From positions 930,001 to 994,000 of the forward strand of contig NZ_CP041091.1 in NCBI RefSeq assembly GCF_006494815.1: a DNA stretch of 64,000 nucleotides. The letters are read 5' to 3'. Below are positions 31,592 through 42,394 of this stretch, in pieces. The translations under genes and the position numbers were made by a program. The notes beneath the pieces were generated by a model that ran no database searches, had not been told where the DNA came from, and saw only the letters and a program-made list of their open reading frames with translations. Source of the DNA: Nocardioides sambongensis (lineage in GTDB: Bacteria > Actinomycetota > Actinomycetes > Propionibacteriales > Nocardioidaceae). The first letter of the stretch is position 1, and every line of letters starts with the position of its first letter.

Positions 31592-31621
31592 TGTCGGTGG
31601 GCGATACTGGGTTCGAACCAG
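31592..31621. repeat. attL: duplicated 3' end of tRNA-Val(CAC)
   Basis: These 30 bp are identical to 40058-40087, which covers the acceptor 3' strand and T-arm of the intact tRNA-Val plus six flanking bases. The match stops abruptly at both ends. This is the displaced native tRNA end left by integration. Confidence 0.93.
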
Positions 31622-31700
31622 ATTTCAACTGGTCGGCCGATCTGGCCGCTGGCCAGCAAAAACCCGGCGTGACCTGCGCATATAACCCGTTCCGGCGAGT

Positions 31701-31728
31701 GAAGCATCCGGAAGCATCCGGAAGCATC
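31701..31728. repeat. Three tandem 10-bp repeats next to attL
   Basis: GAAGCATCCG occurs twice in full and once as GAAGCATC, directly before the heptamer palindrome cluster. This could be an additional arm-type or accessory-factor site for the integrase. Confidence 0.7.
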
Positions 31729-31771
31729 GTGCCCTATGATTGGGCACGTTGAGGGCACGAAGGGCGTGCCC
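31728..31771. promoter_or_regulatory. Left-end cluster of four GGGCACG heptamers
   Basis: CGTGCCC at 31728, GGGCACG at 31742 and 31753, and CGTGCCC at 31765 form two inverted pairs (7-bp and 5-bp spacers). The same set, with one pair identically arranged, recurs inside the right end at 39961-40013. This pattern fits arm-type integrase or excisionase sites, and it overlaps the region where the integrase promoter should be. Confidence 0.65.
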
Positions 31772-31789
31772 GACCCGATCGGAGACCGC

Positions 31790-32899
31790 ATGGCCAGCAC
31801 CGGCAAGACCAAGTTCGGCACCACGAGGAAGCTGCCGTCCGGTCGTTACCAGGCGCGCTACACCGGCCCTGACGGCATCCGCCGCAAGGCGCCGGTCACG
31901 TTCGACACGCTCCGCGACGCTGAGACCTGGCTGGCCACCGTGCGGGCCGACATCGTGCGTGACGTCTGGGTGCCCAGCAAGCAGACCGCACCCGATCTGA
32001 CGTTCGGCGAGTACGCAGACGCCTGGCTCGCCGGCCGCACGCTCAAGGCCCGCACCCGCGCCCACTACCGCAAGCTCCTCGACCAGCAGATCCTCCCGAC
32101 GTTCGCCGCGACGACGCTCAAGACGATCACCCCGGACAGCGTGCGCGCCTGGCACGCCGTGACCGCGACGGACCGCCCCACCCTCCGCTCCCACGCCTAC
32201 GGCCTGCTGCGCACCATCCTTGGCCAGGCCGAGCGCGACGACCTCATCGGCCGCAACCCGTGCCACATCCGCGGCGCGGGCAACGCCAAGCGCGTGCACA
32301 AGGTCGAGCCCGCCACTCTGGGCGAGCTCGAGCACATCGTCACCGCGATGCCGCAGCGCTACCAGCTCCTGGTGCTCCTCGCCGCCTGGTGCGGCCTGCG
32401 GTTCGGTGAGCTCACCGAACTGCGCCGCGGTGACGTCGACACCCGCAAGGGCGTACTGCGCATCCGCCGCGGCGTCGTGCGCGCGGACGGGGAGACCCTG
32501 GTGACCACCCCGAAGTCCGACGCAGGCATCCGCGACGTGTCCATCCCGCCACACCTGCTGCCGCTGGTCCGCGAGCACCTGCTGCAGCACGCGGCACCCG
32601 GCCGCGACGGCCTACTGTTCCCCGCCCGGTCAGGTGGCCACCTCGCCCCCGCGAGCCTCTACCGCGTCTACTACCCGGCACGCGCACAAGCCGGACGCCC
32701 AGACCTCCGATTCCACGACCTCCGCCACACCGGCGCGGTCCTCGCCGCCTCGACAGGCGCCACCCTCGCCGAGCTCATGGGCAGGCTTGGCCACTCCACC
32801 CCCGGCGCTGCGCTGCGCTACCAGCACGCCGCCCAGGGCCGCGACGCCGCGATCGCCGAAGCCCTATCCCGCCTCGCCCAGGGCACCCCACCACAGTGA
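31790..32899 (+). CDS. int: Tyrosine-family site-specific integrase
   Basis: A 369-residue phage-type integrase: an N-terminal AP2-like arm-binding region (FGTTRKLPSGRYQARYTGPD), a SAM-like core-binding domain (LTFGEYADAWLAGRTLKART), and the catalytic domain with Arg204 (CGLRFGELTELRRGDV), His309-x-x-Arg312 (HDLRHT), His335 and Tyr344 (LRYQHA). It lies just inside attL and should catalyse insertion at tRNA-Val. ATG 31790 is preferred over 31736, which lies within the heptamer cluster, because GGAG precedes 31790. The stop overlaps the next gene (GTGA). Confidence 0.96.
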   Translation: MASTGKTKFGTTRKLPSGRYQARYTGPDGIRRKAPVTFDTLRDAETWLATVRADIVRDVWVPSKQTAPDLTFGEYADAWLAGRTLKARTRAHYRKLLDQQILPTFAATTLKTITPDSVRAWHAVTATDRPTLRSHAYGLLRTILGQAERDDLIGRNPCHIRGAGNAKRVHKVEPATLGELEHIVTAMPQRYQLLVLLAAWCGLRFGELTELRRGDVDTRKGVLRIRRGVVRADGETLVTTPKSDAGIRDVSIPPHLLPLVREHLLQHAAPGRDGLLFPARSGGHLAPASLYRVYYPARAQAGRPDLRFHDLRHTGAVLAASTGATLAELMGRLGHSTPGAALRYQHAAQGRDAAIAEALSRLAQGTPPQ

Positions 32900-33387
32900 G
32901 AACCCTCTGGCTCACCTGCCCACGCTGCGGTCGCAACCTCGCCCGCGTTACCCGTGGTCCCGGCGCCGGCCCCGCCAGGCGCGTAGTCGGCGCCGACGTC
33001 CTCGACATCGCCGCGGCCGGCACCGGCACGGTGAGGGAATGGCGAGCGGTCGAGGATCCCCGGTTCAGAGACGTCCCCGAGGACGTCATGGTTCGTGACC
33101 TCGCCGCGACATGTCTAGGCGTCACCTGGCCAGACAACGACCCACCCGACCGCGGCACGCAGTCGCTGCTCCGCGCCCGCCTGGCGCTGGTCCGCGCACT
33201 GTCGTTCACCTGCACAGGGCGAGCGGGCACCGCGAGCCGCGGCCCGATCGGGTGCGGGGTCGAGGTCAGGAGAACCGACGCATGGCTCTGGCGCGCTTGG
33301 CTCGAGGAGGCCGAGGCAGGCGAGGGGTCGCGGCACCGGTCGCTGCACGACGACCCATCCCCGCCCAGCGGAAGCGTCACCGACTGA
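32896..33387 (+). CDS. Zinc-ribbon protein coupled to the integrase
   Basis: A 163-residue protein of unknown function. It begins LWLTCPRCGRNLARVTRGPG, a CxxC zinc-knuckle half, and has a second Cys pair farther on (FTCTGRAGTASRGPIGCGVE). The two halves may make one treble-clef site. GTG 32896 overlaps the integrase stop, which implies joint expression. It could assist the integrase or silence host functions; nothing in the sequence decides this. Confidence 0.65.
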   Translation: MRTLWLTCPRCGRNLARVTRGPGAGPARRVVGADVLDIAAAGTGTVREWRAVEDPRFRDVPEDVMVRDLAATCLGVTWPDNDPPDRGTQSLLRARLALVRALSFTCTGRAGTASRGPIGCGVEVRRTDAWLWRAWLEEAEAGEGSRHRSLHDDPSPPSGSVTD

Positions 33388-33455
33388 CGAGCGTGGGAGG
33401 CATGGTGGTGTCGTTTGCTGTGGTCTACAGTTCCCACACACAACCGCATGGCGAT

Positions 33456-33499
33456 TGGTTCACGCTGCAGCCCTCAACGGGCACGGTCAGCGCGAACCA
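33456..33499. promoter_or_regulatory. Inverted repeat with a central GGGCACG upstream of the excisionase
   Basis: TGGTTCACGCTG (33456-33467) and CAGCGCGAACCA (33488-33499) are 12-base arms with one mismatch and a 20-base spacer containing one GGGCACG heptamer (33479-33485), the same heptamer found at the element ends. It may be an operator linking excisionase expression to the integrase or excisionase protein. The rest of the 202-bp gap contains no gene I can support. Confidence 0.5.
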
Positions 33500-33589
33500 T
33501 GCACCTCGCCCGAGGACGCACTAGGGAACCTCGCCCAAGCCTTGTGCAGCCGATCGGCCCCGGCAGGCCGGTCATACGGAGGCTGCCCA

Positions 33590-33817
33590 ATGGCAACGAA
33601 GAACCAGCGCCCCACCACCGCCGCGACCCCGCAGAAGCGACTCCGCAACCTGACGGTCGCCGCCGAGTACTTCGACGTCACCCCGCGCACGGTCCGCCAG
33701 TGGATCGCTGACGGCCGACTCACCGGCTACCGCGTCGGCGCCAAGCACGTCCGCGTCGACATGAACGAAGTGGAAGCCATGGCCGAGGTGATCCCGAGCA
33801 GCGCGGCCGGTCGGTGA
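33590..33817 (+). CDS. xis: Helix-turn-helix excisionase
   Basis: A 75-residue protein with an excisionase/MerR-like winged helix: LRNLTVAAEYFDVTPRTVRQ, WIADGRLTGYRVGAKHVRV, DMNEVEAMA. Such proteins bend DNA and turn tyrosine integrases toward excision. The ATG at 33590 has ACGGAGG eight bases before it. Its stop overlaps the next gene start (GTGA). Confidence 0.88.
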   Translation: MATKNQRPTTAATPQKRLRNLTVAAEYFDVTPRTVRQWIADGRLTGYRVGAKHVRVDMNEVEAMAEVIPSSAAGR

Positions 33818-34784
33818 GGGCGGTCGTAACCGCCGAGCCGCAGTGGTTCGGAAAGGTCCCCGACAAGCTAATCCGGCGAGCGGGGAGGCGCCGCGCGTCG
33901 CGATAGCTCTCTACGCTCTCGTGGCGCGTCAGAGCGTCGGACGCGACGAGTGGTTTCGCACGTGGCGCCAAGTGGCCGCCGACTTGAAGACCTCCATCAG
34001 CACCGCCAAGCGGGCTGCGAAGTGGCTCGAGGACGAAGGCTGGATCGAGAAGGCTCATCAGGTCTACACCGGCCCGGGGTCGACCCGGTTGGCCAAGGAG
34101 GGCGAGGCGCCCTCGGCCGGGAACGTCTGGCGTTTACGCGACCAGGACGAGGTGCGGCGCGAGAGCCTTACCTGTGACACCGAGGGGGTGGTCACGGCTG
34201 ACCAGGGGAGGGTGGTCACGGGTGACCAGGGGAGGGTGGTCACGGGTGACCACCAAAAGGAGAACCTCGTAAGGGAGAGCAGTAGTAGTACCGGCTCGCA
34301 CTCGCAAGCGACCGCCACAGCGGCCGAGAGATCCAGGGCTGCCGCCGACTGCGCGCTGGTAGCCGCCCTCTCCGCGCTGCCAAGAAGGGTGCGACCAAGG
34401 CCTACTGCCAAAGTGGTCGAAGTGCTCTCCGAGCTCGAGGCCGCGGGCTGGACCGTGCCCGATCTGCGCGAGCACCTGGCCGACCTCGGCTGGCCCGAGT
34501 CCGCGACGCCTGGCCTCGCAGTCGAGCGCCTACGTGACCTACGCGACTGCCAACCTCCCGAACGAGCCGCCGAGCCGCCCGACCCATCGGCGCGCTGCGA
34601 GGTGTGCGGGCAGACGGACGAACGCCGCTGCCGTCTCGCAGGCTCCAAGGTTCACCCGGACGATCGACACGCCTATCGGCCGGTCGGCCTCAGCGCTTCG
34701 GCGAGAACGACAGACTGGGAACTGCCGGCCACCAGAGCGAGAGCCGGCCTCGGCGGCGTGGTGAGAGGCGGGTCCAGTGGCTGA
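33814..34784 (+). pseudogene. Winged-helix replication-initiator-like protein, frameshifted near the N-terminus
   Basis: The frame from GTG 33814, overlapping the excisionase stop, reads VTAEPQWFGKVPDKLIRRAG and stops at 33906. One base added in the G4 run at 33882-33885 joins it to VAIALYALVARQSVGRDEWF and gives 323 residues. The G/C-rich third codon positions switch frame at that point, which supports a frameshift over a late GTG start at 33843. A winged helix (WRQVAADLKTSISTAKRAAK, WLEDEGWIEK) resembles phage/plasmid replication organisers. The middle holds 8-residue repeats (VVTGDQGR) encoded by iterons, and the C-terminus has a CEVCGQT zinc module. The initiator role is inference. Confidence 0.65.
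34188..34251. repeat. Iteron-like 24-bp repeats inside the initiator-like gene
   Basis: Two full 24-bp units begin at 34188 and 34212, and a third partial unit begins at 34236. Each centres on the palindrome GGTCAC-GG-GTGACC (first copy GGTCACGGCTGACC). Repeats inside an initiator gene recall the lambda O arrangement, so this is a candidate replication origin of the excised element. Confidence 0.7.
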
Positions 34785-34974
34785 CAACCGATCAGGGAAC
34801 CGGCCCGGAGGCCGGACGGTGCGGGTCGAGGTGCGTGGTGATCCCGACGCGGTGGCCGAGGTCGACCAGATCATCTCGGCAGCGCTGTCCGCGGCTGGCT
34901 TGACTGCCGCGCCTCGGCCGCGGCATCTGCGTGTGGTGCCGCCACCGGACCGCCGGAAGCGAGCGACGCGGTGA
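34777..34974 (+). CDS. Small element protein of unknown function
   Basis: A 65-residue basic protein with VEVRGDPDAVAEVDQIISAA followed by an Arg/Pro-rich tail. GTG 34777 overlaps the preceding gene by eight bases, and the stop overlaps the next start. Overlaps on both sides make translation likely. I do not recognise a family. Confidence 0.6.
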   Translation: MADNRSGNRPGGRTVRVEVRGDPDAVAEVDQIISAALSAAGLTAAPRPRHLRVVPPPDRRKRATR

Positions 34975-35171
34975 GGCGCCGACGTCCGTCGTCGCGGCGC
35001 TTGGGTGCGGCGCTGGTCGAGGAGCGGTGCTGGTGCGGGCGGCCGCGGCGCGGCGTCGTGGCCGCGGCCCGCGGTGTGCTGGCGCATCACTGCGGACAGT
35101 GTGCCGAGCACTGCACGGTCGCGCTGTACCTCGAGCGGGTGCCCACGCTGCTGCGACGGGGCACCTCGTGA
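34971..35171 (+). CDS. Small Cys-rich element protein
   Basis: A 66-residue protein with CWCGRPRRG and HCGQCAEHC, which gives five closely placed cysteines plus histidines suited to one zinc site. The N-terminus is Arg-rich. Overlaps of four bases on each side place it in a coupled chain that runs to the second recombinase. Function unknown. Confidence 0.6.
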   Translation: MRRRRPSSRRLGAALVEERCWCGRPRRGVVAAARGVLAHHCGQCAEHCTVALYLERVPTLLRRGTS

Positions 35172-35398
35172 CGGCCGCAGGCGCCCAGGCCGGTCCTGGT
35201 GGCGACGCGCCGGCATCGGCCTGGCGTGCGCGGTTCGCTGGTGCGCGGGTCGGGATCGTGTTCGGTCAGCGGGTGCGGATTGTGTCGGTGGCTCGTGCTG
35301 GGGTGCGGTGTCGGTTCCCGGACGGTCACGTCGAGCGGGTCCACCCCGACGACGTCGAGCCGGGCCCGCCGTTCCCGATCGGGGAGGCGGCGCGGTGA
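35168..35398 (+). CDS. Small element protein with SH3-like beta motif
   Basis: A 76-residue protein. The segment GQRVRIVSVARAGVRCRFPD, then GHVERVHPDDVEPG, looks like a small beta-barrel of the SH3/KOW kind. It begins at GTG 35168 (overlap GTGA) and ends overlapping the next gene. No family name can be given. Confidence 0.55.
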   Translation: MTAAGAQAGPGGDAPASAWRARFAGARVGIVFGQRVRIVSVARAGVRCRFPDGHVERVHPDDVEPGPPFPIGEAAR

Positions 35399-35598
35399 CT
35401 GAGGACTACGGCGAGCACCCCGCAGCGTGGAAGGCCACGACCCACTGCACGGTCTGCGGTCAGACCGAGGACGCTTGCCGCCGCAACCCGTACGGCGGGC
35501 ACGAGTACGTAGGCGCGGCGACGCATCAGGTGCAGCTCAACCGCGAGCGCCGCCAGCACCTGGCTGCACGCCACGGCACGGGGGAGGGCGACCGGTGA
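35395..35598 (+). CDS. Small zinc-finger element protein
   Basis: A 67-residue protein with TTHCTVCGQTEDACRRNPYG followed by GHEYVGA. The pattern CxxCGQT-x3/4-CR-H-x-Y is shared with the C-terminus of the initiator-like gene product upstream, so the element encodes the same zinc module twice. It is coupled on both sides by GTGA overlaps. Confidence 0.65.
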   Translation: MTEDYGEHPAAWKATTHCTVCGQTEDACRRNPYGGHEYVGAATHQVQLNRERRQHLAARHGTGEGDR

Positions 35599-37304
35599 CC
35601 CCGCAGCCGCTGCTGCGCCTGGTCGACGTGCAGCACCCGACCACGCCCACCGTCGCGGGCGCCGCCGTCGCGGCCGGTCTGCCGGGGGAGGTGCTGGCGT
35701 GGGATCGGTTGCTCGAGGCCTACCGCGGTGCGGCCGGACGGGACGGGCTCAAGGCGTCCACGGTCGGCATGCACGTCTCGCACTGCCGCGACCTGGCCCG
35801 CCAGGTCGACCGGGCGCCTGGCGAGGTGACCGCGGACGAGGTCCGCGCCTGGCTGGCACGCCCGGGGTGGTCATACCGCACCCGCAAGGCACACCGGGCA
35901 TCGGTCGCCGCCGTGCTCGGCTGGGCAGCCCGCACGGGCCTGGTCGAGGTCGACCCAACCGCAGGCGTCTACGCCTCCCAACTGCTGCCCACCGCCGCAG
36001 TGCCCGACCTGCCTTCACCGCACGGTGTCGAGAACGCCGAGGGTGGTCCGGTCGAGCAGGACGGGCCCGTGGACAGGCCGGGTGTGCCCGTGGACGCCCG
36101 CACCGCGGCGTCCGCGGCCGAGCACCCGGCCAGGCTCTGGGCGCGCCGCAGCGGCGTGTCCGTCGCGGCCACGGGTGCACTGCCGGTCCAGGTGCTCGAG
36201 GCGTGGGCGGCCGCTGGTGCGCCGCGGGTCGAGGTCGCCGGCCACACCGCGGCCGCGGCGTGGGCGCAACTGCTGGACGGCTACGAGGTCGCGGCCCGCG
36301 CTCGAGGACTGCGACCCGGCACCATCCGCCAGCGCCGCCACCACTGCGAGCACCTGGCCCACGCCACCGGACTAGCGCCCCTCGACGTCGAGCCGGACGA
36401 CCTGCTCGAGTGGCAGGCCCGCGAGCACCTGGCACCGGCCACCCGCCGATCCGTACGCGCCAGCATGCGCGCTGTGCTGGGCTGGGCACACCAGGCCGGC
36501 CACCTGCCCGACGATCCCGCCGCCGACCTGCCCCCGGTACGGGTGCCCTCCGGCGTGCCACGGCCCGCGACCGAGACCGCGATCCGCGACGCAGTGAACC
36601 GCGCCTCGCCCAAGCAACGCATGATCCTGCTGCTCGCCGCCTACGAGGGGCTGCGCCGCGCCGAGATCGCCGCGCTCCGCGTCGAGGACCTCACCCCGAC
36701 CGGGTGGCACATCGTCGGCAAGGGCGGCCGCGAGCGCCTGGTCCCCGCCCACGCCGCCCTGCTGGACGAGCTCGCCGCCTACCTCGACCACACCGGGATC
36801 CGCGGCGGCTGGCTGTTCCCGACCGAGGACGGCGCCGGCCACCTCACCACCGAGCACATCGGTCGCACGGTCAGCAGACTGCTGCCCCCTGGCGTATCGC
36901 TGCACAAGCTGCGCCACCGGTTCGCCTCTCAGGCCTACGCATCGGCCTACGACATCCGATCCGTGCAGGAGCTGCTGGGCCACGCCTCGCCCGCCGTCAC
37001 CGCACGCTACGTCGCGGTCCCCACCCCACAGCTCGAGGCCGCCGTCCGCGCCGTGCCACCCGTCCCAGGCATCACCACCCCACACCCACCCCGGTCACCG
37101 ATCCGCAGCGCCTCGACCAGGCGCCCGACCTCGACCAGGCGCCCGACGTCGACCAGGCGCCCGACCTCGACCAGGCGCCCGACGTCGACCAGGCGCCCGA
37201 CGTCGACCAGGCGCCCGACCTCGACCAGGCGCCCGACGTCGACCAGGCGCCCGACCTCGACCAGGCGCAGAGCGGCTGCGCGGGAGGAGCCTGACTCAGG
37301 ATGA
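35595..37304 (+). CDS. Second tyrosine recombinase with duplicated core-binding module and repeat tail
   Basis: A 569-residue recombinase. Residues about 35-124 and 222-311 align to each other (AW..LL..Y..AA...GL, HC..LA, AVLGWA) and both look like SAM-like core-binding domains, joined by a roughly 97-residue linker. The catalytic domain has Arg354 (GLRRAEIAALRVEDL), His437-x-x-Arg440 (HKLRHRF), His463 and Tyr472 (TARYVAV). From about residue 506 the tail is nine STRRPT units encoded by an 18-bp minisatellite. The complete catalytic set indicates activity. Its target is unknown; resolution of element multimers or inversion of an internal segment are options. Confidence 0.88.
   Translation: MTPQPLLRLVDVQHPTTPTVAGAAVAAGLPGEVLAWDRLLEAYRGAAGRDGLKASTVGMHVSHCRDLARQVDRAPGEVTADEVRAWLARPGWSYRTRKAHRASVAAVLGWAARTGLVEVDPTAGVYASQLLPTAAVPDLPSPHGVENAEGGPVEQDGPVDRPGVPVDARTAASAAEHPARLWARRSGVSVAATGALPVQVLEAWAAAGAPRVEVAGHTAAAAWAQLLDGYEVAARARGLRPGTIRQRRHHCEHLAHATGLAPLDVEPDDLLEWQAREHLAPATRRSVRASMRAVLGWAHQAGHLPDDPAADLPPVRVPSGVPRPATETAIRDAVNRASPKQRMILLLAAYEGLRRAEIAALRVEDLTPTGWHIVGKGGRERLVPAHAALLDELAAYLDHTGIRGGWLFPTEDGAGHLTTEHIGRTVSRLLPPGVSLHKLRHRFASQAYASAYDIRSVQELLGHASPAVTARYVAVPTPQLEAAVRAVPPVPGITTPHPPRSPIRSASTRRPTSTRRPTSTRRPTSTRRPTSTRRPTSTRRPTSTRRPTSTRRPTSTRRRAAAREEPDSG
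37112..37273. repeat. 18-bp minisatellite, nine units, at the 3' end of the second recombinase gene
   Basis: The unit is (C/G)TCGACCAGGCGCCCGAC. The first base gives the order C,C,G,C,G,G,C,G,C; the ninth unit is degenerate. In the gene frame it encodes STRRPT; in another open frame it encodes (L/V)DQAPD. Copy number should vary between strains. Confidence 0.95.
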
Positions 37305-37356
37305 GAACGTCAGCACAACGCTGCCGCTGTCCACATCCGTGGGCACACTGGTCGCC

Positions 37357-37620
37357 ATGCCTTCGACCAGGTACGACCAGGCAATCGCCGACATGCGCGG
37401 CCTGGTCGAGCACCGCAGTCGCGTCGAGGCGAGCATCAAACGTCGGTTCGTTGAAACGCTGGCCTGGCACCGCAGCCACGGCGTGCCGTGGACCGTGCTG
37501 GCCGATGGGCTCGGAATCGCCAAGCAGACCGCGCACCGAGCCTGGTCCACCGCGGTCGCGGACCGGCTCAGGGCTGGCGAACCCGCCCGCCCCACGGAAC
37601 CCGACGTCGAGCTCTGGTAG
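37357..37620 (+). CDS. Small helix-turn-helix protein
   Basis: An 87-residue protein with a predicted helix-turn-helix (VPWTVLADGLGIAKQTAHRA) near residues 43-66, preceded by a basic helical region (RVEASIKRRFVETLAW). It could regulate the following genes or act in plasmid maintenance. ATG 37357 is chosen; a GTG at 37339 would add six residues. Confidence 0.6.
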   Translation: MPSTRYDQAIADMRGLVEHRSRVEASIKRRFVETLAWHRSHGVPWTVLADGLGIAKQTAHRAWSTAVADRLRAGEPARPTEPDVELW

Positions 37621-37687
37621 TCACCGGCCGGCGCCGACCATCCCGCCGCGCCGCCCGCGCCACCACACAATCGAGGAGCCGCCGGAC

Positions 37688-37921
37688 ATGGTCGCCTACG
37701 CCGCCCTGGTCGTTGCGCTGGTCGCCCTGACCATCGCCACCGCGACCTACGTCGCCGTCCGCCGCTACGCCACCACCACGTCGGCATGCCTGCGCGCTCA
37801 GCGCGGACGACCATCCACCAGCCAACCGGCAACACCCCCGCGCCCCGACGCCAGCCGCACCCACCCCGCGCCACCCGCGGCCACCCCTGCCACCGACCAG
37901 CCGAGAGGACCCCGACAGTGA
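37688..37921 (+). CDS. Single-TM small protein
   Basis: A 77-residue protein with one N-terminal hydrophobic helix (YAALVVALVALTIATATYVA) followed by a Pro/Thr/Ala-rich hydrophilic tail. GAGGAG lies nine bases before the ATG. The stop overlaps the next gene. It could be a membrane anchor or a small toxin-like peptide; neither is supported by motif. Confidence 0.6.
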   Translation: MVAYAALVVALVALTIATATYVAVRRYATTTSACLRAQRGRPSTSQPATPPRPDASRTHPAPPAATPATDQPRGPRQ

Positions 37922-38742
37922 GCATGTTCGGCACCAGCAGAGCCACCAGCAAGAAGCACGCCACCGGCAACACGACCACCACGACCACCACGACCGCCGC
38001 CGACCCGACGACGCCAGTACCGAACCCCGACCTGCCCGCCGGTTACGACGACCCCGCCTCGCCGTTCCACGTCCCCGGTGACCTACGCGAGCACTACCGA
38101 GTCGACCCTGACCAGGACCTGGAGAGGTCGACCAGCTTCGACTTCAAGAAGTGGTGCGCGACCAGGATCGCGGTCCGCGAGTTCGACCAGCTCGCCGCCG
38201 AGGAGACCGCCCAGCTCGGCAACATGTCCGACGAGCGGATCGGGCTCCGCATGCCCGACTTCATCGGGACCGCCTCGCCCTTGTACGCGACTCCCCGCGG
38301 CCGGCGCCGCGAATACGATCCCGACGCGGACCCCGCGAAGAAGCTCGGAGTGATGATCCGCAAGTGGGGGATGGGCACCACCGCGATCACCGACGTGCAG
38401 TACTCCGCTGCCGACGTGGCGCTCTACTGCCACGCGGTCAACCTCGCTGACGCCCGCACCCGGCGGGACCAGGCGCAGCGCGAGGTCGAGGCGCAGGCCC
38501 GGTTCGAGGCGCAGCACACGTGCGAGGTCTGCGGCCGCTTCGACCCGACCACCGCCAGCCACGACCTGGACGGGCTGCGCGTCCCGCGGTGCTGCGCGCC
38601 GTGCAGCCGGGTCCTCACCCACGAGGCCCGCCGCCTCGAGGCTCTCGCCGTCGAGGGGCTCGCCGCCGAGGAGGTCGAGGGCCGCGCACGTCTCGACCTC
38701 GCCCGCACCTGGATCCACGAGCGCACCGGCCTACGCTCCTGA
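37918..38742 (+). CDS. Element protein with Thr-rich leader and zinc-binding C-terminal region
   Basis: A 274-residue protein. Residues 1-35 are low complexity, with eight consecutive Thr. A middle acidic/aromatic segment (STSFDFKKWCATRIAVREFD) follows, and a Cys cluster HTCEVCGRFDPTTASHDLDG, then RCCAPCSRVL, is likely to bind zinc and resembles an HNH-like treble-clef without an obvious catalytic HNH. GTG 37918 overlaps the preceding stop; an ATG two codons later is also possible. No family is recognised. Confidence 0.65.
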   Translation: MSMFGTSRATSKKHATGNTTTTTTTTAADPTTPVPNPDLPAGYDDPASPFHVPGDLREHYRVDPDQDLERSTSFDFKKWCATRIAVREFDQLAAEETAQLGNMSDERIGLRMPDFIGTASPLYATPRGRRREYDPDADPAKKLGVMIRKWGMGTTAITDVQYSAADVALYCHAVNLADARTRRDQAQREVEAQARFEAQHTCEVCGRFDPTTASHDLDGLRVPRCCAPCSRVLTHEARRLEALAVEGLAAEEVEGRARLDLARTWIHERTGLRS

Positions 38743-38825
38743 CCACCCACTGACCGGTGCGGCCGTGGTGGTCCCGCACCGAGGGCGGGCAGGCCCGCGG
38801 TGGCTCAGGCGTCTGCCCGCCCGCC

Positions 38826-39128
38826 TCACCCCTCGACGTCCCACGCACGCCGTGACCTGACCACCGCGTCACGCGCTGCTGGTGACGTCCACTCCACCCG
38901 CAGTACCAGCCCGCGCGCTGCGAGCTGCCCGACCAGGTGCGCAGCCGCATGCTCTGCGACCAGGTCGGCCCGCACAGGGCCCACGCCTGCCACCCGCGCC
39001 GACCGGAAGATCGCGGCCCGAATCGCGGCGACCTGGTCGCCGTCCTCGAGCCGCAGCACCGGCTCCACGTCCCCGCCCATCGCGCGCGTCACCGCGCCAT
39101 CGTCGCCGACCTCCACCGCGAAACGCAT
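38826..39128 (-). CDS. Small element protein, minus strand
   Basis: A 100-residue protein (start RFAVEVGDDGAVTRAMGGDV; end SRRAWDVEG), convergent with the preceding gene. The alternating pattern suggests a mixed alpha/beta fold. The frame is open farther upstream through the 30-bp repeats, but ATG 39128 gives a compact protein with GGGGGCG eight bases before it. No family recognised; coding status is moderately supported by third-position GC. Confidence 0.5.
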   Translation of the reverse strand: MRFAVEVGDDGAVTRAMGGDVEPVLRLEDGDQVAAIRAAIFRSARVAGVGPVRADLVAEHAAAHLVGQLAARGLVLRVEWTSPAARDAVVRSRRAWDVEG

Positions 39129-39321
39129 CAACACGCCCCCGGTTTCTGATCCGCCGCGGGGTCGCGGCAGCCCCCGACCTGCCTTTTCTTCCCGACGCGG
39201 GCCCCAACCCCGAAACCGGACGGAATCGAACAGATGTTCGGAATAACGGCCGTAGGCAATGTCTACGCGACGTCGCCAACGTCTACGACAACGCGGGACG
39301 CACCCCGACGACTCACCGCCC

Positions 39322-39510
39322 CTCGAGCTGCACCGCGGCGTGCGGGCCGCCTCGAGCTGCACCGCGGCGGCCTGGTCGACGTCGAGGCGCACCGCGGCGT
39401 GCGGGGCCGCGTCGAGCTGCACCGCGGCGTGCGGGCCCGCGTCGAGCTGCACCGCGGCGTGCGGGCCGCGTCGGCTGCAGCGCGTCGAGCTGCACCGCCG
39501 GCGCGACCTG
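39322..39510. repeat. 30-bp repeat array in a 389-bp gap
   Basis: Six imperfect units built on (C/G)TCGAGCTGCACCGCGGCG start at 39322, 39351, 39381, 39411, 39441 and 39484. The minus strand could encode AVQLDAGPHA-type decapeptides, but unit lengths of 29 and 43 break the frame, so I regard the array as non-coding or decayed. GACGTCGACCAGG, the junction of the 18-bp minisatellite, occurs here twice in the opposite orientation. I see no gene in the rest of the gap 39129-39517. Confidence 0.85.
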
Positions 39511-39517
39511 GTCGACG

Positions 39518-39832
39518 TCAGGCAGGATCGTGCGTCGGCTGCGCAGCGGCTGCGCGGTCAACCACGCGGCGCATCGCGGCCTGGTGCTGCGCCCGCTCGG
39601 CTGGCGACGCCGGCCAGTCCCGCAGCATCGCCGCTGCAGCTGCGCCGTCCTCGACCAGGACGGTCTGCACGGGGCGGCCGAGAGAGCGTGCAGCACGCCG
39701 AGCAGCGCGCCGCCATGCAGCGACGTCTGCGCCTTGGGTGCTGCGCGCTTGCCCCGTCGCGATGAGGTCGGCGCGGATCGTCGCCTCGAGCCGATCGCGC
39801 CGAACGTTGATCGAGGTGACCGGTGACGCCAT
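39518..39832 (-). CDS. Small basic element protein, minus strand
   Basis: A 104-residue helical, basic protein (INVRRDRLEATIRADLIATG; AAWRRAARRAARSLGRPVQT; MLRDWPASPAERAQHQAAMR). ATG 39832 is the last plausible start, near the right end of the element. The composition suggests nucleic-acid binding, but no motif is recognised. Confidence 0.5.
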   Translation of the reverse strand: MASPVTSINVRRDRLEATIRADLIATGQARSTQGADVAAWRRAARRAARSLGRPVQTVLVEDGAAAAAMLRDWPASPAERAQHQAAMRRVVDRAAAAQPTHDPA

Positions 39833-39960
39833 GGGCCACGGTCTACCACGGCGGTCCGACCGCGCTCCACCCAACCGGCGGGGCCGGCCGATCCGGCTGG
39901 CTCTTGCGGTCCGAGCGTGGTCGGGAGACCGTGTGAATCAGTCGAGCCGTCGTGCCCCCG

Positions 39961-40013
39961 CGTGCCCAATCAGTGGGCACGCGCCGGGGCGAATCGGGCA
40001 CGTACAGGGCACG
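39961..40013. promoter_or_regulatory. Right-end cluster of four GGGCACG heptamers
   Basis: CGTGCCC at 39961 and GGGCACG at 39975, 39996 and 40007. The first pair has the same 7-bp spacing as the left-end pair at 31728. The last pair plus flanks (39996-40014) matches 31742-31760 at 17 of 19 bases. These are the best candidates for arm-type binding sites of the integrase or excisionase. Confidence 0.65.
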
Positions 40014-40044
40014 AGGCCGGACTCCGTGGTGGGAATCCGGCCTC
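40013..40044. terminator. Element-borne hairpin just downstream of tRNA-Val
   Basis: GAGGCCGGA and TCCGGCCTC form a perfect 9-bp stem with a 14-base loop, 20 bp beyond the tRNA 3' end in the direction of tRNA transcription. It can replace the native terminator (31560-31591) that integration moved 8.5 kb away. Confidence 0.65.
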
Positions 40045-40057
40045 TGACCTGCGCTTA

Positions 40058-40087
40058 TGTCGGTGGGCGATACTGGGTTCGAACCAG
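40058..40087. repeat. attR within tRNA-Val(CAC)
   Basis: Identical over 30 bp to attL at 31592-31621. It spans the tRNA T-arm and acceptor 3' strand. The copy here was delivered by the element and restores a functional tRNA gene. Confidence 0.93.
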
Positions 40088-40135
40088 TGACCTCTTCGGT
40101 GTGAACGAAGCGCGCTACCACTGCGCCAATCGCCC
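40064..40135 (-). tRNA. tRNA-Val(CAC)
   Basis: A 72-nt cloverleaf on the minus strand: acceptor GGGCGAT/ATCGCCC, anticodon stem CTTCG/CGAAG with loop TTCACAC (anticodon CAC), T-arm CTGG-TTCGAAC-CCAG. The 3' CCA is not encoded (CCG follows). It is the integration target of the adjacent element and differs from the second tRNA-Val at 42316 mainly in the anticodon arm. Confidence 0.95.
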
Positions 40136-42315: not shown

Positions 42316-42387
42316 GGGCGATTGGCGCAGCGGTAGCGCGCTTCCTTGACACGGAAGAGGTCACTGGTTCAAACCCAGTATCGCCCA
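42316..42387 (+). tRNA. tRNA-Val(GAC)
   Basis: A 72-nt cloverleaf: acceptor GGGCGAT/ATCGCCC, anticodon stem CTTCC/GGAAG with loop TTGACAC (GAC), T-loop TTCAAAC. CCA is encoded at 42388-42390. Paralogue of tRNA-Val(CAC) at 40064; the one-base T-loop difference may explain why the element chose the other copy. Confidence 0.96.
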
Positions 42388-42394
42388 CCAGCGG

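Follow-up and report, generated by a model that had tools for sequence, protein, structure and literature searches.

A candidate self-replicating, capsid-less island of phage-satellite type in the tRNA-Val(CAC) gene of Nocardioides sambongensis

A stretch of 64,000 nucleotides from Nocardioides sambongensis (NCBI RefSeq assembly GCF_006494815.1, contig NZ_CP041091.1, positions 930,001 to 994,000 of the forward strand; hereafter the window) holds an integrative element of about 8.5 kb, designated W, in a tRNA-Val(CAC) gene. Judged from its sequence, W may be an integrative, self-replicating and capsid-less island of a phage-satellite or mini-phage lineage that would need a helper, a reading held at slightly better than even probability. 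Its borders are defined by an exact, non-extendable 30-bp repeat, of which just two copies occur in the window and which encloses 8,466 bp (Table 1). An intact tRNA-Val(CAC) was placed on the minus strand by both ARAGORN (40062-40135) and Rfam (40064-40135), and because of these placements the right copy is taken as the 3′ end of this gene. Hence, the exact boundaries and the location of one copy in an intact tRNA, as claimed in an earlier note on this DNA, were confirmed. The GC content of W is 72.6%, the same as that of its flanks, and the host genome forms one contig of 4.43 Mb. Nearby, the 3′ end of a tRNA-Val(GAC) gene (42316-42390) carries the 23-bp att core (42366-42388) with T for C at one position, no second copy of this variant being found in the 64-kb window.

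To collect loci with related integrases, 215 genomes of the genus were searched at the DNA level with the integrase of W. The resulting 54 loci consisted of 40 fetched stretches, the window itself, L197 and 12 of 19 virus loci, with two loci each from genomes G124 and G127. They were examined (22 + 32) for bounding att sites, for which 14 bp or more in common was accepted without a shuffle control. Seventeen were bounded by repeats of tRNA-Val, either (CAC) or (GAC), and 37 were not classified. The cargo of the 17 consisted of a TrwC relaxase with its helicase in seven, the helicase half only in one (L323), phage genes in seven, and neither in two. TrwC was recognized with Pfam in L280 (5588-8305), L282 (4930-7620), L279, L283, L287, L294 and L324. 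Among the phage-type loci, a PF05065 capsid gene was found in L276, L277 and L286, all three inserted at tRNA-Val(GAC); genes for the large terminase subunit (TerL), portal and head protein in L278; a protease and a tape measure in L197; and a tape measure in L284 and L319. A tape measure (phrog_305, 1e-7) also occurs in L292, an eighth locus of the genus with phage genes. No family match was obtained for the capsid candidates of L197 and L284, nor for an L284 gene of 171 aa that was clustered with the protease of L197. L278 (1248-18335) is a mini-prophage of 17 kb lodged in tRNA-Val(CAC), where genes for terminase, portal, head and tail are compactly ordered. The two loci with neither relaxase nor phage genes were W and L288; the genes of L288 read by eye as ordinary metabolism, and its integrase lies within a relaxase-bearing clade. 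In an integrase tree of 50 rows, W pairs with L276 (99/91), and both belong to a six-row clade (99/97) together with L286, L292, L277 and L278; this clade was recovered in a tree of 22 rows (97/95). All five clade partners of W carry phage genes, be it a capsid gene, a tape measure or the TerL, portal and head set.

These trees bear on the possibility that W is instead an integrative plasmid, close to the integrative and mobilizable elements (IMEs, characterized by a relaxase and/or an oriT), whose circle would be mobilized in trans by a conjugative element via an unrecognized oriT. Such a route is conceivable because related integrases serve the TrwC-type (MobF) islands, a family of 8-18 kb found in the same genus and at the same tRNA-Val genes. 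It also draws on the second recombinase of W, described below: relatives of this protein and of the small protein o6 are encoded side by side in a 41-kb contig with a VirB4-type ATPase match and a terminase, and its catalytic half shows similarity (37-40%) to recombinases encoded on small Corynebacterium plasmids. Unlike W, however, the MobF islands carry a relaxase-helicase. In the seven of their eight loci with a called excisionase gene (xis), this gene is at the far, tRNA-facing end, no more than 1 kb from the tRNA in six, whereas xis of W sits beside the integrase gene (int). Moreover, the W integrase falls outside the relaxase-bearing clades and no relaxase match was obtained among the 14 W proteins. 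Mobilization in trans was thus considered rather unlikely.

The satellite reading was further examined through gene order, in a set composed of W and eight phage-gene-bearing loci of the genus that were chosen after their content had been seen. In all nine, xis is found downstream of int; in L319 the two are separated by a gene of 406 aa on the opposite strand (L319:2471-3691). A gene overlaps the int stop in six of the nine, by 4 nt in W, L277, L284 and L197 and by 1 nt in L278 and L292; the overlapping gene of W (o2) and that of L197 are 45% identical over 20 aa (E 0.001, single comparison). Following xis, W carries an initiator-like gene, rep, with three palindromic iterons inside its codons 116-137. 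The motif GGTCACNNNTGACC occurs at three places in the 64 kb, all within rep, which amounts to five matches counting both strands where 0.11 would be expected. In the lambda O layout, iterons are located within the initiator gene, and this arrangement is found in W. Iterons lie within the gene at the initiator position in six of the nine loci (W, L278, L284, L197, L286 and L319), the repeats of the five others differing widely in sequence from those of W. Similarly, the 3.6 kb downstream of int hold a repeat cluster that exceeded all 200 shuffles under a 10-mer rule in six of nine (W, L284, L197, L286, L292 and L319), the cluster of L292 being located between called genes. Matches to O-like or initiator families were also found in L319 (phrog_391, 2e-4) and L286 (phrog_270, 0.0024), and a winged-helix gene at the initiator position was suggested by weak matches in W and L319 and by eye in the other iteron-bearing loci. 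The iterons within rep are the best functional clue, and once excised W probably replicates as a circle. The earlier note had proposed an initiator-like gene with iterons; the iterons stood, whereas the assignment as initiator is weak. Indeed, the PHROG matches of rep were phrog_391 (“replication initiation O-like,” 0.005), phrog_270 (0.008) and phrog_428 (0.018), and its Pfam matches (PF25213, 4e-4; PF13545, 0.005) were below cut-off. When about 5.8 billion proteins were searched by shared words, 7,998 candidates were scored for rep and none but rep itself was recovered.

Fourteen genes were proposed in W, twelve on the plus strand (int to o12) and two, o13 and o14, facing them near the tRNA. 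All 14 proteins were searched against Pfam, PHROGs and NCBIfam, with E up to 0.1 for ten of them and up to 0.01 for the other four; ten proteins (all except int, xis, o6 and o11) were also searched against PADLOC. Confident family matches were restricted to the two recombinases and the excisionase, so that the integrase, excisionase and second recombinase claimed earlier are all present (PF00589, TIGR01764 and conserved recombinase residues), with active-site motifs intact in both recombinases. The xis product also matches PHROG families of small terminase subunits (phrog_57, 4e-5; phrog_141, 0.008), more weakly than its excisionase match (5e-7), which is read as a shared helix-turn-helix (HTH). 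The chain of GTGA-coupled small genes was likewise verified, with six overlaps (int/o2, o5/o6, o6/o7, o7/o8, o8/rec2 and o11/o12). Within the searches just given, no transfer, virion or defence gene was recognized in W, in agreement with the earlier statement that the small genes resemble none of these. A defence island was considered and rejected, no PADLOC match being obtained for the ten proteins searched. Actinomycete integrative and conjugative elements (AICEs) are defined by an FtsK-type Tra protein. W recalls a pSAM2-like AICE by its actinobacterial host, its tRNA site and its int-xis-rep order, and the transfer gene might have diverged. Yet no FtsK/SpoIIIE-type match was found among the 14 proteins, and the only proposed genes above 320 aa encode the two recombinases, which makes this option highly improbable. 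As to coding signal, o5, o7, o13 and o14 are not clearly coding by base composition (GC content higher at first than at third codon positions, i.e., GC1 > GC3), and o2, rep, o5, o6, o7 and o14 (6/14) were missed by the gene caller of this analysis. A k-mer enrichment test within W gave nothing convincing, and a comparison of o10 with the HTH tail of P0011 showed no similarity.

The second recombinase, rec2, has an unusual architecture: a tyrosine recombinase with an Lsr2-like stretch and core-binding domains in this arrangement was not found described in the parts of the literature covered. It keeps R, K, H, R, H and Y, which we take to be the active site, in columns that are invariant across the 13-row alignment A1. 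The protein has two core-binding domains: its residues 30-130 are 40% identical over 91 aa to its residues 215-335 (E 8e-18, single comparison), a duplication also present in all seven rec2 relatives compared. The stretch between them is weakly Lsr2-like (PF23359, 0.009, below cut-off; phrog_1223, 3e-4); its motif is kept in the eight metagenome relatives aligned over that part and was found in none of 160 recombinase loci tested (80 loci from named species genomes and 80 rec2 loci). The metagenome relatives of the same architecture are 42-66% identical to rec2. In phages, the top matches of the catalytic half were the integrases of the 17-kb Gordonia phages McGonagall, GMA5 and GRU3 (41-45%), which are complete phages, unlike W; these alignments cover neither the first core-binding domain of rec2 nor its Lsr2-like stretch. 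No relatives of the N-terminal half were found in viral contigs. A second tyrosine recombinase also occurs near attR in L197 and L319, and a gene of PHROG family 5931, ParB-like by eye, lies near the one of L319 (L319:13207-14037). The 80 rec2 loci came from another scan, from which only L181 was used. The loci from named species genomes (at least 80) were mostly general XerC/XerD-like and were not taken as evidence. In L181, a virus contig, an o6-like gene (47% identity to o6 over 34 aa) is located just upstream of the rec2-like gene, and the gene at the initiator position shows no similarity to rep (E 0.12). This 41-kb contig (G236), classed as viral, is possibly a phage-plasmid: besides a terminase (phrog_9, 2e-52), it shows a match to a VirB4-type ATPase and a gene that is lytic-transglycosylase-like by eye.

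The earlier note had presented the middle genes of W as the heart of an undescribed system and proposed to look for their co-occurrence next to tRNA-Val. Positions 34777-37100 were searched as DNA against 215 genomes of the genus including that of W, two candidates being scored per genome. Among the matches listed for the 214 other genomes, only short ones were present (best 121 bp), mostly to the active-site region of rec2; therefore, co-occurrence was negative at the DNA level. Among the roughly 5.8 billion proteins searched by shared words, the o12 protein had one relative besides itself, P0002 (26% identity, E 6e-6), encoded on a 1.7-kb contig, with similarity plainest in an N-terminal block and around CEVCG. 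Searches gave no relatives of o12 in viral contigs, no match of o12 in plasmids and no match of P0002 in phages. A conserved cargo system was thus rejected at the DNA level across the 214 genomes. From these comparisons, the middle genes of W are not a conserved system, the conserved part being the chassis. The description of W as a minimal replicating integrative element or satellite fits the att bounds, int and xis, the iteron-bearing rep and an integrase nested among phage-gene carriers; the claim of an undescribed system with important middle genes is not sustained in that form. That proposal also depended on an empty tRNA-Val site in close relatives. In this respect, the refuting outcome named in the note, a lack of empty sites in relatives, did not arise: over roughly 15 kb on the element side, 19 of 20 tRNA-Val(CAC) loci of relatives showed no match to the W integrase, although a second partial tRNA copy was found close by in three of the 20 (L208, L210 and L213). 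None of the 20 had the left-flank gene of W directly adjoining the tRNA, and no exact empty site was present in 14 further regions. G020 has pabC in common with W on the right side and glyA-YihY-TrkA-Trx on the left side, its tRNA is unoccupied, and about 11 kb of genes that are ordinary by eye separate Trx from the tRNA.

A serious rival arises from the same data, namely that W is a decayed satellite or mini-prophage: having lost its virion genes by deletion and received a recombinase-bearing module, it may still excise but would no longer spread. W has no virion gene while the eight phage-type relatives all have at least one tape-measure or capsid gene, the module at 34777-37100 lacks DNA relatives in the genus beyond the short matches listed, low-complexity arrays occur at 37113-37268 and 39321-39490, and several small open reading frames (ORFs) have a weak coding signal. 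Conversely, int, xis, rec2 and o12 are open frames with a GC3 of 0.89 to 0.93, the active-site motifs of both recombinases and the iterons are intact, and the existence of metagenome relatives sharing the rec2 architecture does not suggest a degraded gene. Decay was accordingly regarded as unlikely, while deserving to be kept in view.

If W is a functional satellite, int and xis would excise it as a circle. The rep protein would bind the iterons, open the origin as lambda O does and then recruit the host helicase, and the coupled small genes could control copy number or the take-over of the host. As the circle replicates, rec2 may resolve its multimers. In the weakest step of this scheme, a helper phage would supply packaging and W would spread like a capsid-less phage-inducible chromosomal island (PICI) or a phage-inducible chromosomal minimalist island (PICMI). 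Neither a PF05065 capsid nor a PF03354 terminase was found in the host genome, in searches that match in only 4/14 and 3/14 control genomes; therefore, the helper would come from outside or be of another type. Several observations weigh against the satellite reading. No resident helper of these two types is seen, no gene for a capsid, large terminase subunit, portal or tape measure was recognized in W, and the called genes of 15 relatives, compared with the six frames of W, match only int, xis and recombinase domains. The integrases are exchangeable, related ones serving relaxase-bearing islands; W sits on a long branch in both trees; and the 22-row tree leaves the W-L276 pair unresolved and places L284 and L197 on the relaxase side, weakly supported (78/85). 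Regarding the replicon, the matches of rep to O-like families are weak (0.005-0.018), L276 and L277 have no iterons and L278 none by the 10-mer rule, and the initiator-position genes gave no PHROG match in L277, L284 and L197 and an HTH-type match only in L278 (0.019).

Phage satellites are outlined as att-flanked elements of 7-20 kb with integrase, regulatory and replication genes and no structural genes (PMC13376191), and W agrees in flanks, size and gene content, replication by rep being presumed. Candidate PICIs of Mycobacterium (PMC10654092) include some with replication genes, and those with a tyrosine integrase lie in tRNA genes, a site type shared by W. The integrase-plus-capsid rule of that survey selects L276, L277 and L286; W falls outside this class, as outside the capsid-forming PICIs (cf-PICIs), because no major capsid gene was recognized. 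The PICMIs of Vibrionaceae (PMC10803314) resemble W in their minimal gene set, their integrase with a 4-nt int-stop-overlapping gene, the lack of a capsid-remodelling gene and a replication gene of their own (presumed for W). However, they are sited beside fis with int, alpA and primase, whereas W is in tRNA-Val and shows no primase match among its 14 proteins. The Streptomyces satellites MulchRoom and MiniFlayer (PMC10690885) are actinobacterial like W; they have capsid genes and no obvious replicase, W being the reverse. An atypical Rhodococcus replicative element (PMC12169178), of 75-80 kb and without island features, was set aside as a comparison.

Table 1. Features of element W (positions in the 64,000-nt window).
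Feature	Positions	Strand	Basis
attL: 30-bp copy of tRNA-Val 3′ end	31592..31621	+	exact repeat; core common to relatives' att sites
int: tyrosine integrase, 387 aa; internal ATG at 31790 possible start	31736..32899	+	PF00589 4.4e-15; phrog_1 5e-66
o2: small gene, start Zn-ribbon-like (by eye), GTGA overlap with int stop	32896..33387	+	no family match
xis: excisionase-type HTH protein, 75 aa	33590..33817	+	TIGR01764 1e-9, above cut-off
rep: winged-helix initiator-like protein, 313 aa (270 aa in public prediction)	33843..34784	+	weak family matches; P0003
Three palindromic iterons GGTCACNNNTGACC, 24-bp period: candidate origin	34190..34251	+	repeat search
o5: 65-aa ORF, weak coding signal	34777..34974	+	no family match
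o6: 66-aa Cys-rich protein	34971..35171	+	similarity to L181 gene
o7: 76-aa ORF, weak coding signal	35168..35398	+	sub-threshold family matches only
o8: 67-aa protein	35395..35598	+	resembles rep C-terminus: 12 aa around CxxC, E 0.002, single comparison
rec2: tyrosine recombinase, 569 aa; two core-binding domains either side of a weakly Lsr2-like stretch, then the catalytic domain	35595..37304	+	
18-bp direct-repeat array in rec2 3′ end	37113..37268	+	repeat search
o10: 87-aa HTH-like protein	37357..37620	+	PF19889 7e-6 (below its cut-off); phrog_6836 6e-5
o11: 77 aa, N-terminus hydrophobic (by eye)	37688..37921	+	no family match
o12: 274-aa protein, CxxC motifs	37918..38742	+	one relative, P0002
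o13: 100-aa convergent ORF	38826..39128	-	no family match
About five imperfect 30-bp repeats (by-eye count), between o13 and o14	39321..39490	.	repeat search
o14: 104-aa convergent ORF, weak coding signal	39518..39832	-	ORF list, base composition
attR, overlaps 3′ end of intact tRNA-Val(CAC)	40058..40087	+	exact repeat; ARAGORN, Rfam

A broader and more tentative proposal, possible and still doubtful, is that one tRNA-Val integrase lineage serves three cargos in one genus. These would be relaxase hitch-hikers, capsid-bearing satellites or mini-phages, and a third kind with neither. W would represent the latter, a minimal self-replicating satellite chassis reduced to int, xis, an O-type replicon and a recombinase of a new type, with two core-binding domains round an Lsr2-like reader, for resolving the multimers of the element; this chassis could be movable by more than one helper type. 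Candidate satellites have been surveyed in Mycobacterium (PMC10654092) and satellites shown in Streptomyces (PMC10690885), and actinobacterial prophage-like elements below 15 kb have been suggested as satellites (PMC10023795); a literature search gave no report of phage satellites in Nocardioides. Iterons inside the initiator-position gene could mark such replicons. W is of interest chiefly for the architecture of rec2 and as a member of a graded, natural series at one att site, made of a 17-kb mini-prophage, capsid carriers of 8-10 kb and a capsid-less island, with relaxase islands of related integrases beside them. This series makes testable both the gain or loss of virion genes by satellites and the exchange of integrases between phage and conjugation hitch-hikers.

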